Below, in pieces: positions 7,413-44,955 of a DNA stretch of 64,000 nucleotides. Positions within the stretch are counted from its first letter, which is position 1; every line of letters begins with the position of its first letter. The translations under genes and the position numbers were made by a program. Below the pieces are notes generated by a model. It ran no database searches, had not been told where the DNA came from, and worked only from the letters and a program-made list of their open reading frames with translations. This DNA is from Chitinophaga vietnamensis (GTDB taxonomy: Bacteria; Bacteroidota; Bacteroidia; Chitinophagales; Chitinophagaceae): contig NZ_CABHMS010000005.1 of assembly GCF_902167635.1 (NCBI RefSeq), positions 186,001 through 250,000 on the forward strand. The letters are read 5' to 3'.

Positions 7413-7538
7413 TTGGTTGGTTTTTGATTTTTACTATTCTGATATTGGCAGGTATACGGGCATAGCAAGGGCCTTTCTCATTCCGAGAAACGCCATGCAC
7501 AAAATCGAATGACCTGAAATGATTGCTACTGTCAGCTG

Positions 7539-8675
7539 TTAAGGCATCACGGTGATAATACGTCCATCTTCTTTAATGTGTATCCCGCTTTCCTGCAGGA
7601 ACTGGATTAAGGTTGATAACTGTGTATTACGGCTGACAAGCCCGCCAAATTGCCTGTCAGGGATCGTTCCTTCATATCTTACTTCTACATCATACCATCG
7701 TTCTACCTGTCGCATCAGGCTTTTGAGATCGGTGGTGTTGAGTGATAGCTGGCCATTTTTCCATGCGGTTACCTGCTCTATATCGGCCGTTTTTACGGTA
7801 ACGTCGTTGGCGCTGATAAACGCCATCCTGCCGGGTTGCAGCAAGGTTTTGCCGCTGGCATGTATCACTTGTATGCTGCCGCTGACGAGGCAGGCCTGTT
7901 GCGCCGGCTCGTTGGAATAGGCCATCACATTGAATTCCGTACCGAGCACCTGTATTGCCGTTCCGCCGCAGCTCACAACAAAAGGACGCTGCGCATCCGG
8001 CGAGATATCGAAATATCCTTCACCGCTAAGTTCCACTTTCCGTTCATGGCCGGTAAAGGCGGTAGGGTAACGGATGGAAGAAGCGGCATTGAGCCATACA
8101 TGGCTGCCATCAGGCAGCACTACCTGGAACTGGCCACCACGGGGCGTTGACAAGGTATTGTACGCAACGGCGCCCGTTGTTTTACTGTATTGTATCTGCC
8201 CGTTCTTTTGATAAATAGACGCAGTGCCTTGCTGTATCACTTTGTTGCCGCTGTCGAGCGCTACAGTGGCGCCATTGTCCAGTGTGAGGATGGCTTTGTT
8301 GCCGCCGGGCACCGGCAGCTGCTGTGCAGTGGGAGCAATAGCATTATGGCGGAAGAAGAAATGCTGTGCGCCCCATACGGCCAGCAGCGCTACTGCCGCG
8401 GCCGCGGCATATTGTTTCCAGCGGATCACGCGGGGAGCTGCGAGCTCCTGATCCATAGCGGTGATGCGGCTTTTCAGCTGTGCAAACAGCCGGGCATCGG
8501 GCGGGAGCGTGGTGGTATGGCTCATCACCACCTGCTCATAGTCGTGTAACAGTTGCGTATACAGTGCGTCGTCCGCCGCGCTGATGGCGGCCGACAGCTG
8601 CTCTTGCTCTTCGGCGCTAATAGTGCCGGCAGCATATTTCTCCAATAAAACAGTTATATGGTTACGTGTAGTCAT
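7539..8675 (-). CDS. FecR-family anti-sigma factor
   Basis: A 378-residue single-pass inner-membrane regulator. Residues 1-80 form the cytoplasmic sigma-binding part, one Ala/Val-rich membrane segment lies near residues 88-105 (YAAAAAVALLAVWGAQ), and the periplasmic FecR domain contains the hallmark LSTPRGGQFQVVLPDGSHVWLNAASSIRYP. The C-terminal end (about 315-378) resembles the DUF4974 STN-interacting domain. I start it at the ATG at 8675 rather than the GTG two codons upstream. It sits between the sigma factor and the SusC gene with which it should communicate. Confidence 0.93.
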   Translation of the reverse strand: MTTRNHITVLLEKYAAGTISAEEQEQLSAAISAADDALYTQLLHDYEQVVMSHTTTLPPDARLFAQLKSRITAMDQELAAPRVIRWKQYAAAAAVALLAVWGAQHFFFRHNAIAPTAQQLPVPGGNKAILTLDNGATVALDSGNKVIQQGTASIYQKNGQIQYSKTTGAVAYNTLSTPRGGQFQVVLPDGSHVWLNAASSIRYPTAFTGHERKVELSGEGYFDISPDAQRPFVVSCGGTAIQVLGTEFNVMAYSNEPAQQACLVSGSIQVIHASGKTLLQPGRMAFISANDVTVKTADIEQVTAWKNGQLSLNTTDLKSLMRQVERWYDVEVRYEGTIPDRQFGGLVSRNTQLSTLIQFLQESGIHIKEDGRIITVMP

Positions 8676-37404: not shown

Positions 37405-39549
37405 ATGGCAGACTTAAGATTTCAAAGGAACTTTGGTATTGCGGCGCACATCGATGCGGGTAAAACCACTACCACAGAGCGTATCCTGTATTATACAGGT
37501 AAATCCCACAAAATTGGTGAGGTGCACGAAGGTGCCGCTACCATGGACTGGATGGCACAGGAGCAGGAGAGAGGTATTACCATTACATCTGCTGCTACCA
37601 CTTGTTTTTGGAATTTTCCCACTCAACAAGGTAAAGGAACTCCAGATACCAAACAATATAAATTCAACATCATTGATACTCCGGGCCACGTGGACTTTAC
37701 CGTTGAGGTAGAGCGTTCCCTCCGTGTACTGGATGGTCTGGTGGCACTGTTCTGCGCTGTATCCGGCGTTGAGCCTCAGTCAGAAACCGTTTGGCGCCAG
37801 GCTAACCGCTACCGCGTTCCCCGTATCGGTTTCGTTAACAAAATGGACCGCTCCGGTGCCGACTTCCTGAACGTGGTTAAACAGGTAAAGGAAATGCTGG
37901 GTGCTAACCCCGTTCCCCTGACCCTGCCTATCGGTGCTGAAGATACCTTCAAAGGCGTGGTAGATCTGATCACCATGAAAGGTATCATCTGGGACGAAGA
38001 AGGTAAAGGCGCTACTTACCAGGAAATCGAAATTCCTGCGGATATGAAAGAAGAAGCTGAACAATGGAGAGCTAACCTCGTTGAAGCAGTAGCCGAATAC
38101 GACGACAAACTCATGGAGAAATTCTTCGAAGATCCTAACTCTATCTCCGAAGCTGAAATCCACGAAGCGATCCGTAAAGCAACCATCGATATCGCTATCA
38201 TCCCGATGATGTGCGGTTCTTCCTTCAAAAACAAAGGCGTTCAGAAAATGCTGGATGCGGTTTGCCGCTACCTGCCTTCTCCAATGGACGTGGATGCAGT
38301 AAAAGGTACCAATCCTGATAACGGTGAAGAAATTGAACGTAAACCAGATGCAAAAGAACCATTCGCTGCACTGGCGTTCAAAATCATGACCGATCCTTTC
38401 GTAGGCCGTCTGGCGTTCTTCCGCGCTTATTCCGGTCACCTGGATGCAGGTTCTTATGTACTCAATACCCGCACCGGCAAGAACGAGCGTATCAGCCGTA
38501 TCATGCAGATGCATGCTAACAAACAGAACCCGGTTGATTTCATCGAAGCTGGTGATATCGGTGCTGCCGTTGGTTTTAAAGATATCAAAACCGGTGATAC
38601 CCTGTGCGACGAAAACCATCCGATCGTACTGGAATCCATGACCTTCCCTGATCCGGTGATCAGCATCGCCATCGAGCCTAAAACTCAGGCAGACGTTGAT
38701 AAAATGGGTATGGCCCTCGCTAAACTGGTAGAAGAAGATCCTACCCTGAAAGCGAAAACAGACGAAGAAACCGGCCAAACCGTACTGAGCGGTATGGGTG
38801 AGCTGCACCTCGAAATCATCGTTGACCGTATGCGTCGCGAGTTCAAGGTAGAAGTAAACCAGGGCGCTCCTCAGGTGGCTTACAAAGAAGCTATCACCGC
38901 TAAAGTTGAACACCGCGAAGTGTTCAAGAAACAAACTGGTGGTCGTGGTAAATTCGCTGATATCCAGGTAGAGATCGGCCCTGCTGATGCTGAATGGCTG
39001 AAAGAAAACGATGGTAAATCATTCCAGTTTATCAACGATATCTTCGGTGGTGCTATCCCGAAAGAGTTCATCCCGGCTGTACAGAAAGGTTTCGAACAAT
39101 CTATGGGTCAGGGCGTACTGGCAAACTTCCCGCTGGTAAACCTGAAAGTGCGTCTGTTCGACGGTTCCTTCCACGCAGTGGACTCCGATGCAATGTCTTT
39201 CGAACTTTGCGCTAAACAAGCATTCCGCGAAGCTGCCCGCAAAGCTAAACCAGTATTGCTCGAGCCGATCATGAAAGTAGAAGTACAAACTCCTGATCAG
39301 TACATGGGTGATGTTACAGGTGACCTGAACCGTCGTCGTGGTATGCTGGAAGGTATGGACTCTAAAAACGGTGTACAGGTAATCAAAGCTAAAGTTCCGC
39401 TGAGCGAAATGTTCGGTTATGTAACCCAGCTGCGTTCCCTGTCTTCTGGCCGCGCTACTTCCATCATGGAATTCTCTCACTACTCTCCTGCGCCTAACAA
39501 CGTAGCTGAAGAAGTGATCGCTAAAGTAAAGGGTAAAGTAAACGCTTAA
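37405..39549 (+). CDS. fusA: Elongation factor G
   Basis: A 714-residue translational GTPase that drives translocation. GTPase motifs are complete: [15 protein letters not shown] (P-loop), RGITITSAA (switch I), DTPGHVDF (switch II) and NKMDRSGAD (base recognition). Domains II-V follow, including [15 protein letters not shown] and the C-terminal [11 protein letters not shown]...[25 protein letters not shown]. Length is normal for Bacteroidota EF-G. It is a single-gene unit with its own promoters and terminator, separated from both rpsG and rpsJ. Confidence 0.98.
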
Positions 39550-42971: not shown

Positions 42972-43571
42972 ATGAAAAAAATTCGTCTCTTAACCCTTGT
43001 ATTATTGACCCTGATGTTCGGCTCTGTTGCCAATGCACAAATCCAGAAAGGAAATATAATGGTAGGGGCAAATCTAACCGATCTCGGTTTTATCTTCCAG
43101 AAAAACAGCACGACATTCAATTTTGACCTGACGCCTAAAGTAGGTTGGTTCATTAAGGATGGTCTTGCCATTGGCGGGTATGTTAATTTCGGGCTGAAAA
43201 CCGTTAAGGATGCCGGTTCCGACGTGAATTACGGTGTAGGAGGTTTTGCCCGTTACTATATTGAAGACAAGAATGTGCGCAAGCTGGAATTTTCAAAGCG
43301 GGTGCGCTTTTTCCTGGAAGGTAATGCAGGCTTCGCCGGTAGCAACCCTGCTAATGGTGTTTCTACCAATGGTTTCAACATTGGTGTAGGCCCTGGTATC
43401 TCTTATTTCATTACGCCTAATGTGGGCCTGGAAGGCTTGCTGAAGTATGATCTGACTGTTGGCGGCGGTAGCTCTACTACTGCCAACCACCTGGGTTTGA
43501 ACATCGGGTTCCAGATCTACCTGCCTACTTCCAAAGCTCGTCAGATCTATAAAGAAGAAACTGGTAAATAG
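42972..43571 (+). CDS. Outer-membrane beta-barrel protein (OmpW/OmpX-like size)
   Basis: A 199-residue protein with a standard signal peptide (LLTLVLLTLMFGSVANAQ). Alternating hydrophobic/polar strands follow, such as KGNIMVGANLTDLGFIF, FDLTPKVGWFIKDGLAIGGYVNFGLKT, YGVGGFARYYI and LGLNIGFQIYLP, ending in a probable eight-stranded barrel. It is a common Bacteroidota porin-like or PorT-type outer-membrane protein of unknown function. It stands alone, downstream of the deacetylases and before the small peptide genes. Confidence 0.85.
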   Translation: MKKIRLLTLVLLTLMFGSVANAQIQKGNIMVGANLTDLGFIFQKNSTTFNFDLTPKVGWFIKDGLAIGGYVNFGLKTVKDAGSDVNYGVGGFARYYIEDKNVRKLEFSKRVRFFLEGNAGFAGSNPANGVSTNGFNIGVGPGISYFITPNVGLEGLLKYDLTVGGGSSTTANHLGLNIGFQIYLPTSKARQIYKEETGK

Positions 43572-43592
43572 GTTTAAGCATTTATTTCTTTT

Positions 43593-43631
43593 ACAACAAG
43601 GCTCCTGGATATATCCGGGGGCCTTTGTTGT
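43593..43631 (+). terminator. Hairpin after the outer-membrane barrel gene
   Basis: acaacaaggc (43593-43602) pairs with gcctttgttgt (43621-43631) with one bulge. It lacks a long T run, so it is a weak terminator or an mRNA-end structure. Confidence 0.5.
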
Positions 43632-43690
43632 TAGGAGTCCGTTTGCTGTGGTTCAGCGCAATGAACAAGTGAAAGATAGTGAAGACGAAT

Positions 43691-43817
43691 TGAATAAAAT
43701 GAATGGGTGATATATTCTGAATACACTTTAATTTCAATGCCGGGTCTAGCGCTAGCCCTTGGGATTGCCGAAAACCAAGTAACAGAGTAGGTATTATTTT
43801 GACGTAAAAACCATCTT
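43691..43817 (+). promoter_or_regulatory. Conserved leader of small peptide gene 1
   Basis: It contains tgaataaaatgaat (43691-43704) and gggattgccgaaaacca (43761-43777), followed by agagtagg (43784-43791). All three recur in the same order before small gene 2. The 17-nt block is identical in both and starts 57 nt before the ATG in both. It may be a promoter/operator or a structured 5' leader. Confidence 0.75.
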
Positions 43818-43886
43818 ATGAATTTACTCAACCAACTGCTGCAAACTATTGTTGCATTGCTGAAATCTCTGCTGGGCGGCCTGTAA
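43818..43886 (+). CDS. Small amphipathic peptide gene 1 (22 aa)
   Basis: ATG to TAA encodes 22 residues. It begins MNLLNQLLQT, ends KSLLGGL, and is almost all Leu/Ile/Val with Asn, Gln, Lys and Ser on one helical face: an amphipathic or membrane-active helix. The start is supported by the leader shared with peptide gene 2 at identical spacing, and by a strong terminator 53 nt downstream. An 8-bp inverted repeat (ctgtaatc, 43881-43888, with 43910-43917) spans the stop codon. Size and composition recall type I toxins, phenol-soluble modulins or leaderless bacteriocins, but no homology is claimed. Confidence 0.7.
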   Translation: MNLLNQLLQTIVALLKSLLGGL

Positions 43887-43938
43887 TCAGTACGTTCCCG
43901 CCAGTGAGGGATTACAGTATTATTCCCTTACGAAATTC

Positions 43939-43972
43939 AAGAGCTCCGGATCCGTGCCGGAGCTCTTTTTTT
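43939..43972 (+). terminator. Terminator of small peptide gene 1
   Basis: An 11-bp perfect stem aagagctccgg with ccggagctctt, a 7-nt loop and a T run of about seven. Confidence 0.93.
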
Positions 43973-44071
43973 GTGAGGAATCCGTACTTACTTGAAAAAT
44001 ATGAAATCGAATTGTTGGTTGAAATGCTTGCTGCCAGCGGAATGAATGGATGAGGCGTTATGTTGGACAAA

Positions 44072-44196
44072 TGAATAAAATGAACGACTGCGGAATGAAA
44101 GTTTGGGTCTAAATTTATTCCGGTAACAAAATAACCACTGGGATTGCCGAAAACCAGAGAATAGAGTAGGCGTTTACCTATTAAAACCTTCAAACT
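44072..44196 (+). promoter_or_regulatory. Conserved leader of small peptide gene 2
   Basis: tgaataaaatgaac (44072-44085), gggattgccgaaaacca (44140-44156) and agagtagg (44163-44170) mirror the leader of gene 1. The distance between the first two blocks is 68 versus 70 nt; the 17-nt block starts 57 nt before the ATG in both. Sequence between agagtagg and the ATG has diverged. Confidence 0.75.
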
Positions 44197-44283
44197 ATGG
44201 ATCTGCTGAATCAACTGCTGGCACTGATCTTAGGATTAGTAAAATCATTATTAGGCGGTTTGGGTGGTGGCTTACCTCTGTAA
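44197..44283 (+). CDS. Small amphipathic peptide gene 2 (28 aa)
   Basis: ATG to TAA encodes 28 residues, beginning MDLLNQLLAL and containing VKSLLGGLGGGLPL. Residues 3-8 (LLNQLL) and 16-22 (KSLLGGL) are identical to peptide 1 at the same positions; the extra six residues are a Gly-rich tail. The DNA has diverged at many synonymous sites (ctg/tta/ctc for Leu) while the peptide is kept, which argues for selection on the protein. Its own terminator follows. Function unknown. Confidence 0.7.
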   Translation: MDLLNQLLALILGLVKSLLGGLGGGLPL

Positions 44284-44319
44284 GAGTTAAGCAAGCCCAG
44301 GCGATGCGCCTGATTATTC

Positions 44320-44361
44320 GAGAGGCTGTTCCCTGCAGAGAGGTACAGCCTCTCTTTTTTT
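44320..44361 (+). terminator. Terminator of small peptide gene 2
   Basis: A 10-bp perfect stem (gagaggctgt, 44320-44329, with 44345-44354), a 15-nt loop and a T run of about seven. Confidence 0.92.
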
Positions 44362-44386
44362 GTGTATAAATAAATCCTCTTTGATT

Positions 44387-44419
44387 TTTGGAATTGTGAA
44401 ATTTGTTTACCTATATTTG
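44387..44419 (+). promoter_or_regulatory. Promoter P1 of the S10 operon
   Basis: TTTG (44387-44390), a 21-nt spacer and TATATTTG (44412-44419). It would give a leader of about 225 nt before rpsJ. Confidence 0.65.
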
Positions 44420-44574
44420 TCAAAATGGGCATATTAACTTAGTCTAAGGCCTAATATGCACAGAATGAATGTTTTCGAGCGCCTCATTGCACTATTCCCT
44501 ACTGTAGATCCCTCCTTTCGCTGCTGCCAAACTGTGTCTGCTGCCAGTAATCTTTTATTTTTTCCTGAGAATTA

Positions 44575-44605
44575 TTTGCCAAATAAAAAAAACGGGTTAC
44601 CTTTG
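44575..44605 (+). promoter_or_regulatory. Promoter P2 of the S10 operon
   Basis: TTTG (44575-44578), a 19-nt spacer and TACCTTTG (44598-44605), an ideal Bacteroidota promoter, followed by CCCTCCCAATTTG as at rpsL. The start site is about 38 nt upstream of rpsJ. Confidence 0.88.
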
Positions 44606-44649
44606 CCCTCCCAATTTGTAAAGGGAAAAAAAGTAGAAGTTCATTGCAT

Positions 44650-44955
44650 ATGTCTCAGAGAATAAGAATCAAGCTGAAGTCCTACGATCATAACCTGGTA
44701 GACAAATCTGCTGAGAAGATCGTAAAAACCGTGCGTAACACGGGTGCCGTGGTAACTGGTCCAATTCCGTTACCTACAGAGAAGAAAATTTTTACGGTGC
44801 TGCGTTCCCCGCACGTAAACAAGAAAGCGCGCGAGCAGTTCCAGTTGTGCACACACAAGCGTTTACTGGACATTTACACGTCCTCTTCCAGAACGGTAGA
44901 TGCGCTCAGCAAGCTGGATTTGCCATCTGGGGTAGAAGTTGAAATTAAAGCATAG
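44650..44955 (+). CDS. rpsJ: 30S ribosomal protein S10
   Basis: A 101-residue S10, in the small-subunit head and a NusB partner in antitermination. [24 protein letters not shown] and [43 protein letters not shown] are canonical. I use the ATG at 44650; an upstream TTG in frame is unlikely. It is the first gene of the S10-spc-alpha series, with no tuf or fusA directly upstream. A 194-nt structured gap separates it from rplC. Confidence 0.98.

Follow-up and report, generated by a model that had tools for sequence, protein, structure and literature searches.

Chitinophaga is a genus of soil bacteria known for antibiotics and surface motility. In Chitinophaga vietnamensis two very small open reading frames (orfs) stand in tandem ahead of rpsJ, and the locus raises the question of what such products do and how their expression is controlled. 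The window analyzed here is a stretch of 64,000 nucleotides on contig 5 of the 6.3 Mb genome, and the coordinates below refer to it.

Organization of the two units

The original prediction, made from the sequence alone, described two tandem units built of the same parts, with equal spacing between a common block and the start codon and with a terminator closing each unit. The coordinates bear this out: with starts of the 17-nt block gggattgccgaaaacca at 43761 and 44140 and ATGs at 43818 and 44197, the distance is 57 nt in both units. Both orfs are open, and the motifs LLNQLL and KSLLGGL occupy equal positions in the predicted products of 22 and 28 amino acids, as had been claimed. Within each unit the order is a box of the pattern TGAAYAAAATGAAYG, a TAnTTT -7-like element 38 nt on, the leader, the orf and the terminator:

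43691..43705, + strand: box TGAATAAAATGAATG, promoter/operator-like, unit 1; conserved about 66 nt 5′ of the pseudoknot core in micropeptide units
43729..43736, + strand: -7-like element TAATTTCA, unit 1; column conservation in units aligned on the box
43758..43793, + strand: DUF805b RNA (RF02914), predicted H-type pseudoknot, unit 1; 37.5 bits (cut-off 35.6) and covariation; stem S1 43758-43762 with 43775-43779, stem S2 43767-43769 with 43790-43792
43818..43886, + strand: micropeptide B, MNLLNQLLQTIVALLKSLLGGL, 22 aa; 22-aa type, pN/pS 0.32
43904..43931, + strand: 3′UTR hairpin with arms GTGAGGGA and TCCCTTAC, unit 1; recurrent in B-type units, by eye
43939..43972, + strand: intrinsic terminator, unit 1 (stem 43939-43967); terminator-like stem search
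44072..44086, + strand: box TGAATAAAATGAACG, promoter/operator-like, unit 2; match to the pattern TGAAYAAAATGAAYG, conserved among units
44110..44117, + strand: -7-like element TAAATTTA, unit 2; column conservation
44137..44172, + strand: DUF805b RNA (RF02914), predicted pseudoknot, unit 2; 39.8 bits (cut-off 35.6) and covariation; stem S1 44138-44141 with 44154-44157, stem S2 44146-44148 with 44169-44171
44197..44283, + strand: micropeptide A, MDLLNQLLALILGLVKSLLGGLGGGLPL, 28 aa; 28-aa type, pN/pS 0.17
44337..44361, + strand: intrinsic terminator, unit 2 (stem 44337-44355); terminator-like stem search

Three terminator-like stems were found in the interval 43500-44700 against a mean of 1.0 in shuffled sequences, and the transcripts of both units are predicted to fold strongly (z -3.9 and -3.7, terminators included). 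Most B-type units carry a second 3′UTR hairpin (GTAAGGGA...TCCCTTAC) ahead of the terminator and many A-type units have a CTTTAATTATT-like stretch in common, both recognized by eye; these elements possibly play a role in mRNA stability.

Reading of the orfs places fusA at 37405-39549 and the start of rpsJ at 44650, in agreement with the predicted location of the units between these genes. The same interval encodes a glycosyltransferase-like, two polysaccharide deacetylase-like and one barrel-like product; the second deacetylase was matched by Pfam at E 3.7e-12 and the barrel-like one at E 5.4e-4, below the cut-off of the model. Behind the barrel-like orf stands a terminator-like stem of its own (43598-43625). 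No exporter, immunity or processing gene was recognized adjoining the array when the orfs of the window were read and two neighbors were scanned with Pfam; the unit loci of other genomes were searched solely for the neighbor genes of this window.

The tgaataaaatgaa block, which had been noted at the head of each unit, is present in both (at 43691 and 44072), and we recognize it as the upstream half of a promoter-like arrangement. When distinct units from the genus were aligned on the box, a -7-like T-A-n-T-T-T was conserved by column in 45 of the 70, and -7-like sites (at least 5 of 6 positions) were enriched 25-34 nt 5′ of the pseudoknot core (74 vs about 16 in shuffles). The box, at a match of at least 11 of 13 positions, precedes 84 of the 99 units that stand alone or come first. 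None of the 18 close-following units has it; their core is situated 6-108 nt downstream of another orf and they were themselves identified via their pseudoknot. One of these 18 (L049, with a 108-nt gap) has a terminator-like stem ahead of the unit. The exact pattern TGAAYAAAATGAAYG occurs in its own genome at the two units only. Across the genus the box was found in at least 68 of 79 genomes, and the reversed pattern used as a control gave 3 matches in 79 genomes. The idea that the box is private to micropeptides was rejected, a pseudoknot-micropeptide unit standing behind just 7 of 33 boxes (30 loci, L280-L309); it may be a regulator site common to other loci.

The DUF805b leader and its targets

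The original prediction was right that both units have a common leader, and it missed the identity of this leader, its pseudoknot and its many other targets. In a cmscan search both leaders were assigned to DUF805b, RF02914, a family of the Cis-reg type from the Rfam clan CL00115, with E-values of 5.3e-7 and 8.2e-8 over the whole window. Like members of this family, they exceed the gathering score, stand 5′ of orfs and belong to Bacteroidota. The alignments contain the marks of the family, namely the conserved stem, CCGAAAA and AGAGTAGG, and both elements are co-oriented with the coding orf and located 5′ of it, as are most elements read elsewhere.

Unlike the Rfam consensus, which comprises one hairpin only, the elements analyzed here have a second, pseudoknotted helix. 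This helix (S2) consists of CC-GG and one covarying pair, 10-34, formed by the base before CC and the base after the GG of AGAGTAGG, and its addition turns the element into an H-type pseudoknot of about 35 nt. In the genus set (145 loci) the pair 10-34 is standard in 180 of 182 distinct elements (G-C 120, A-U 27, G-U 22, U-A 7, C-G 3 and U-G 1), and outside the genus it is standard in all 29 elements (G-C 18, U-A 6, C-G 3 and A-U 2). The columns CC, GAAAA and AGAGTA test little since the pattern used to search for the elements fixed these bases. In an alignment of 69 rows (A3), comprising 28 of the 29 elements from outside the genus (L166 was left out) and 41 chosen genus elements, 98.1% of the cells are paired and the covariation reaches 0.602, compared with 0.121 in shuffles and at most 0.069 for slid registers; further pair types in A3 are not above the shuffles (12 vs 12.2). 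When L166 is forced into the fixed register its S1 fails at two of three pairs, the stem being shifted by one, and S2 fits. When all 193 distinct elements are counted, the pairs of S1 hold in 181, 192 and 188 and those of S2 in 188, 192 and 190, with at least one failing row (L040) being an artefact of script parsing. The covariation of S2 comes from a single pair, the remaining two being invariant or nearly so. Because the pair 10-34 covaries both within and outside the genus, we take it as near certain from these comparisons that the DUF805b element is an H-type pseudoknot.

Riboswitches of the preQ1-I type are H-type pseudoknots of about 35 nt with two short stems and an A-rich third loop. 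DUF805b resembles them in size, in its two short stems, in its A-rich third loop and in its location near the start codon; it differs in its conserved bases and in targets that do not belong to one metabolic pathway. What the analysis shows for DUF805b is its fold, conservation and position.

The distance from the GG of the pseudoknot to the ATG is 23-26 nt in 90 of 117 micropeptide units. At the best-scoring locus of other genomes of the phylum this distance is 19-27 nt in 25 of 26 cases, three of the 29 phylum loci not having been caught by the pattern. For other targets within the genus the distance is 8-43 nt, and a second group has 47-58 nt, where the spacer frequently contains a small hairpin. 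At DUF6520-type loci (L130, L142, L086 and others) a GCCTTTTGATTTATAAAGGC-like hairpin sits in the spacer, which is about 50 nt long, and could restore the usual distance between pseudoknot and ATG. The distance from the -7-like element to the pseudoknot is fairly constant too, which is compatible with a transcriptional role. We favor a translational one because the normal spacing between pseudoknot and ATG persists in the close-following units that have no box; judged from this geometry, the pseudoknot likely controls translation.

At E up to 0.001, RF02914 was detected in 59 of 60 genomes of the genus, with up to 23 matches in each, and 53 of these genomes exceed the cut-off. A phylum-wide sample of 296 genomes gave 92 with matches, 59 of them over the cut-off; in both the genus and the phylum searches none of the 14 controls gave a match. 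The genome of C. vietnamensis has four other copies, located ahead of three tandem GG-type orfs and one 45-aa orf. One scanned GG-type product is a class I lanthipeptide (NF038153, E 2.2e-11), and the 45-aa product falls just under the cut-off of the same model (19 vs 22 bits). A fourth lanthipeptide-type orf without DUF805b follows the three that have the element (L001 1501-2680, C1:837 kb). Of the downstream orfs in the genus set, 93 have at least 40 aa; among these, Pfam (E up to 0.001) recognized DUF6520 in 17, PixA in 15, lantibiotic dehydratase in two, ricin-type lectin models in two each and two peptidase models in one each, and NCBIfam matched three models with one member each; most of the 93 have no match in either collection. 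From these matches we infer that the targets of DUF805b may form one regulon of released goods.

The RNA family RF02914 itself is already known. Its micropeptide targets are not named in those parts of the open-licence literature that our searches covered, and in these papers we found no precedent for the pseudoknot or for such targets; the source paper of RF02914 may already mention the pairing.

The peptides and their distribution

The proposal that the peptides are conserved as proteins is upheld by pN/pS ratios of 0.17-0.32 in four classes. The pairwise values are 0.17 for the 28-aa type (20 unique sequences), 0.32 for the 22-aa type (36), 0.27 for the 24-aa type (13) and 0.28 for the 20-aa type (7), so that purifying selection, and with it a coding function of these orfs, is near certain on comparative grounds. 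A search pattern independent of the leader retrieved 74 LLNQLL-type orfs, and in 71 of them the pseudoknot pattern stands no more than 90 nt away; close variants of the pseudoknot, recognized by eye, precede the remaining three.

The predicted amphipathic helix is supported by computation. In all nine peptides analyzed the best helical periodicity falls at 94-106 degrees, calculated over 19 N-terminal residues or over the whole peptide where it is shorter. The hydrophobic moments of the two window peptides were reached by 13 and 2 of 5000 shuffled sequences, those of five other peptides by 0-44, and those of two short peptides from another genus (G394, below) by 230 and 85. The nine peptides have a net side-chain charge of -2 to +1, and with this near-neutral charge they are not typical cationic antimicrobials. 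The orfs of 22 and 28 codons specify a short amphipathic helix, as computed, with no signal or leader peptide. None of the four classes was matched in Pfam or NCBIfam at E up to 1, and a PDB sequence search with the 28-mer gave one match that was not significant (E 0.17).

A pattern combining leader and peptide retrieved 43 stretches from the GTDB genome collection, 34 of them named Chitinophaga. Eight of the nine others were read (L239, Flexibacter, was left out); six of these have no pseudoknot and were taken as chance matches. The contig L250, from a metagenome-assembled genome (MAG) labeled Flavihumibacter, carries three Chitinophaga-type units adjoining rpsJ and may be a misplaced or misbinned Chitinophaga contig. 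In L247, from a Bacteroidales MAG, a DUF805b-like pseudoknot (at 2343) precedes a 48-aa hydrophobic orf.

In a tblastn search with the 28-mer, 61 of 79 genomes of the genus gave matches at E up to 1. Five of these (G061, G075, G033, G052 and G066) were discarded as spurious: the match starts at residue 4 of the query, the frame has 102-130 aa and the rpsJ locus has no unit. One divergent unit each in G024 and G046 was added to the tally. By our own count 58 of 79 Chitinophaga genomes carry units, and homologous units in relatives, on which the original prediction had been staked, are thus present and mostly intact rather than absent or decayed. The two units of the window are not chance occurrences, since their RF02914 E-values are significant and like units recur in most of the Chitinophaga genomes searched.

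Units adjoin rpsJ in 57 of the 58 genomes (coordinates compared by eye), rpsJ not being found in G077. The array stands just 5′ of rpsJ in 30 of 30 loci of one set and in all 21 fetched loci that bear units, and 19 of the 40 fetched loci have rpsJ and no unit; 20 of these 40 had been picked for absent or weak matches, and G006 and G070 lie outside the set. The picture of two units thus holds for the window, and elsewhere it has to be extended to further peptide classes and to several units per array. The four main classes usually appear in the order 20 aa, 24 aa, 22 aa, 28 aa, rpsJ. An array has from one to at least four units, so genomes range from none to at least four, and some arrays contain further short orfs, e.g. 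of 21, 23, 27, 35-36 and 40 aa. L058 and L232 have one pseudoknot each without an orf of the expected kind; these look like decayed units.

In a fusA tree of 39 species, including 17 of the 19 with an empty locus, the empty ones form one clade of 14, one pair and the single genome G051. At the G051 locus (L210, about 7460-7700) the box and a terminator-like hairpin are kept, as judged by eye, and the pseudoknot and orf are both gone; these remnants suggest the loss of a micropeptide unit.

With a profile of 32 peptides and E up to 0.1, matches were obtained in 12 of 294 genomes of the family; five of the 12 are Chitinophaga, and most matches in the others are weak. The leader-subtype pattern was found in 14 of 394 family genomes, nine of them outside Chitinophaga; all nine were read, and only G394, from another genus, has micropeptides behind the pattern. 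It carries three tandem units for peptides of 17, 17 and 22 aa, each with a pseudoknot, and rpsJ is absent from the 3 kb read around them.

Proposed role and alternatives

We propose that the arrays encode leaderless membrane-active peptides under pseudoknot control, a reading that deserves about as much credence as doubt. Each window unit would be a complete micro-gene with a promoter, a short 5′UTR containing the pseudoknot, a leaderless amphipathic-helix peptide and a terminator. The last stem of the pseudoknot ends about 25 nt 5′ of the ATG, which would put it at the upstream edge of the initiating ribosome, where a ligand or RNA-binding factor common to other DUF805b genes could act through it to gate or boost translation. 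The peptides would work on membranes or interfaces, most probably once released, either by antagonizing competitors or by serving as surfactants that aid surface spreading. Because the differing sequences have length and amphipathicity in common, action in bulk is suggested.

Phenol-soluble modulins and leaderless bacteriocins of Gram-positive bacteria are short, have no signal or leader peptide, form amphipathic helices and are often encoded by tandem near-identical genes. The Chitinophaga peptides resemble them in being short, leaderless, amphipathic by computation and tandem, and are unlike them in matching no family, in their near-neutral charge, in their Gram-negative hosts, in that no linked exporter was recognized and in having a separate RNA pseudoknot for each gene.

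The main alternative is that the arrays are type I toxin genes, whose hydrophobic peptides depolarize the membrane of the producing cell unless antisense RNAs and structured mRNAs restrain them. Such systems typically occur as tandem near-identical copies, and the size and hydrophobicity of the peptides, the tandem duplication and the strongly folded transcripts agree with this interpretation. There is, however, no clear sign of an antisense promoter: in a scan that detects the common -7 consensus only, the highest 10-nt bin held 3 antisense sites vs 2.9 expected for 28 A-type units, and for 34 B-type units the highest bins held 5, 4 and 3 vs 2.8. The leader is also found at unrelated genes for lanthipeptides, lectins and PixA, and we consider a toxin function unlikely.

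Small conserved hydrophobic peptides are also common regulators that bind membrane complexes, and the products could stay in the cell and tune such a complex under the condition sensed by DUF805b. The purifying selection on the peptides would suit this role, but an array can hold at least four sequence classes alike mainly in length and amphipathicity, and the number of units varies from none to at least four. Given this diversity and variation, a bulk physical activity would fit better than one specific partner, and we regard a tuning role as a little less likely still than a toxin.

The presence of DUF805b ahead of class I lanthipeptide precursors in the same genome raises the thought that the micropeptides are RiPP precursors modified by remote enzymes. 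This is very improbable: no leader-core structure was found and the peptides are too short for it, none of the four classes has an NCBIfam match at E up to 1, the 32 aligned LLNQLL-type peptides have no Cys and few Ser/Thr, and reading of the orfs revealed no modification gene nearby. That the units are leader peptides or attenuators of the downstream ribosomal operon is scarcely credible in spite of the array standing directly 5′ of rpsJ wherever the loci of both sets bear units, since both window units start with a box and end in a terminator, rpsJ has no unit at almost half of the fetched loci and the units of the other genus have no rpsJ in the 3 kb read there.

As the same pseudoknot precedes lanthipeptide-precursor and other genes, the micropeptides may belong to a common RNA-controlled set of products. 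More broadly, and tentatively, with rather more doubt than belief, DUF805b could be a phylum-wide orphan riboswitch or protein-responsive translational switch for a released-goods regulon of lanthipeptides and other RiPP precursors, PixA-like proteins, DUF6520 peptides and lectins, and in Chitinophaga it would also drive the arrays of leaderless amphipathic micropeptides. The analysis improves the structure of the RNA family, shows that its position relative to the start codon is nearly fixed and gives a set of targets that can be read, so that a search for its trigger becomes possible with simple reporters. A conserved micropeptide family that no Pfam or NCBIfam model matches also comes to light. 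If the broader reading is true, the Chitinophaga arrays would represent a new class of micropeptides, a Gram-negative counterpart of the staphylococcal modulins.
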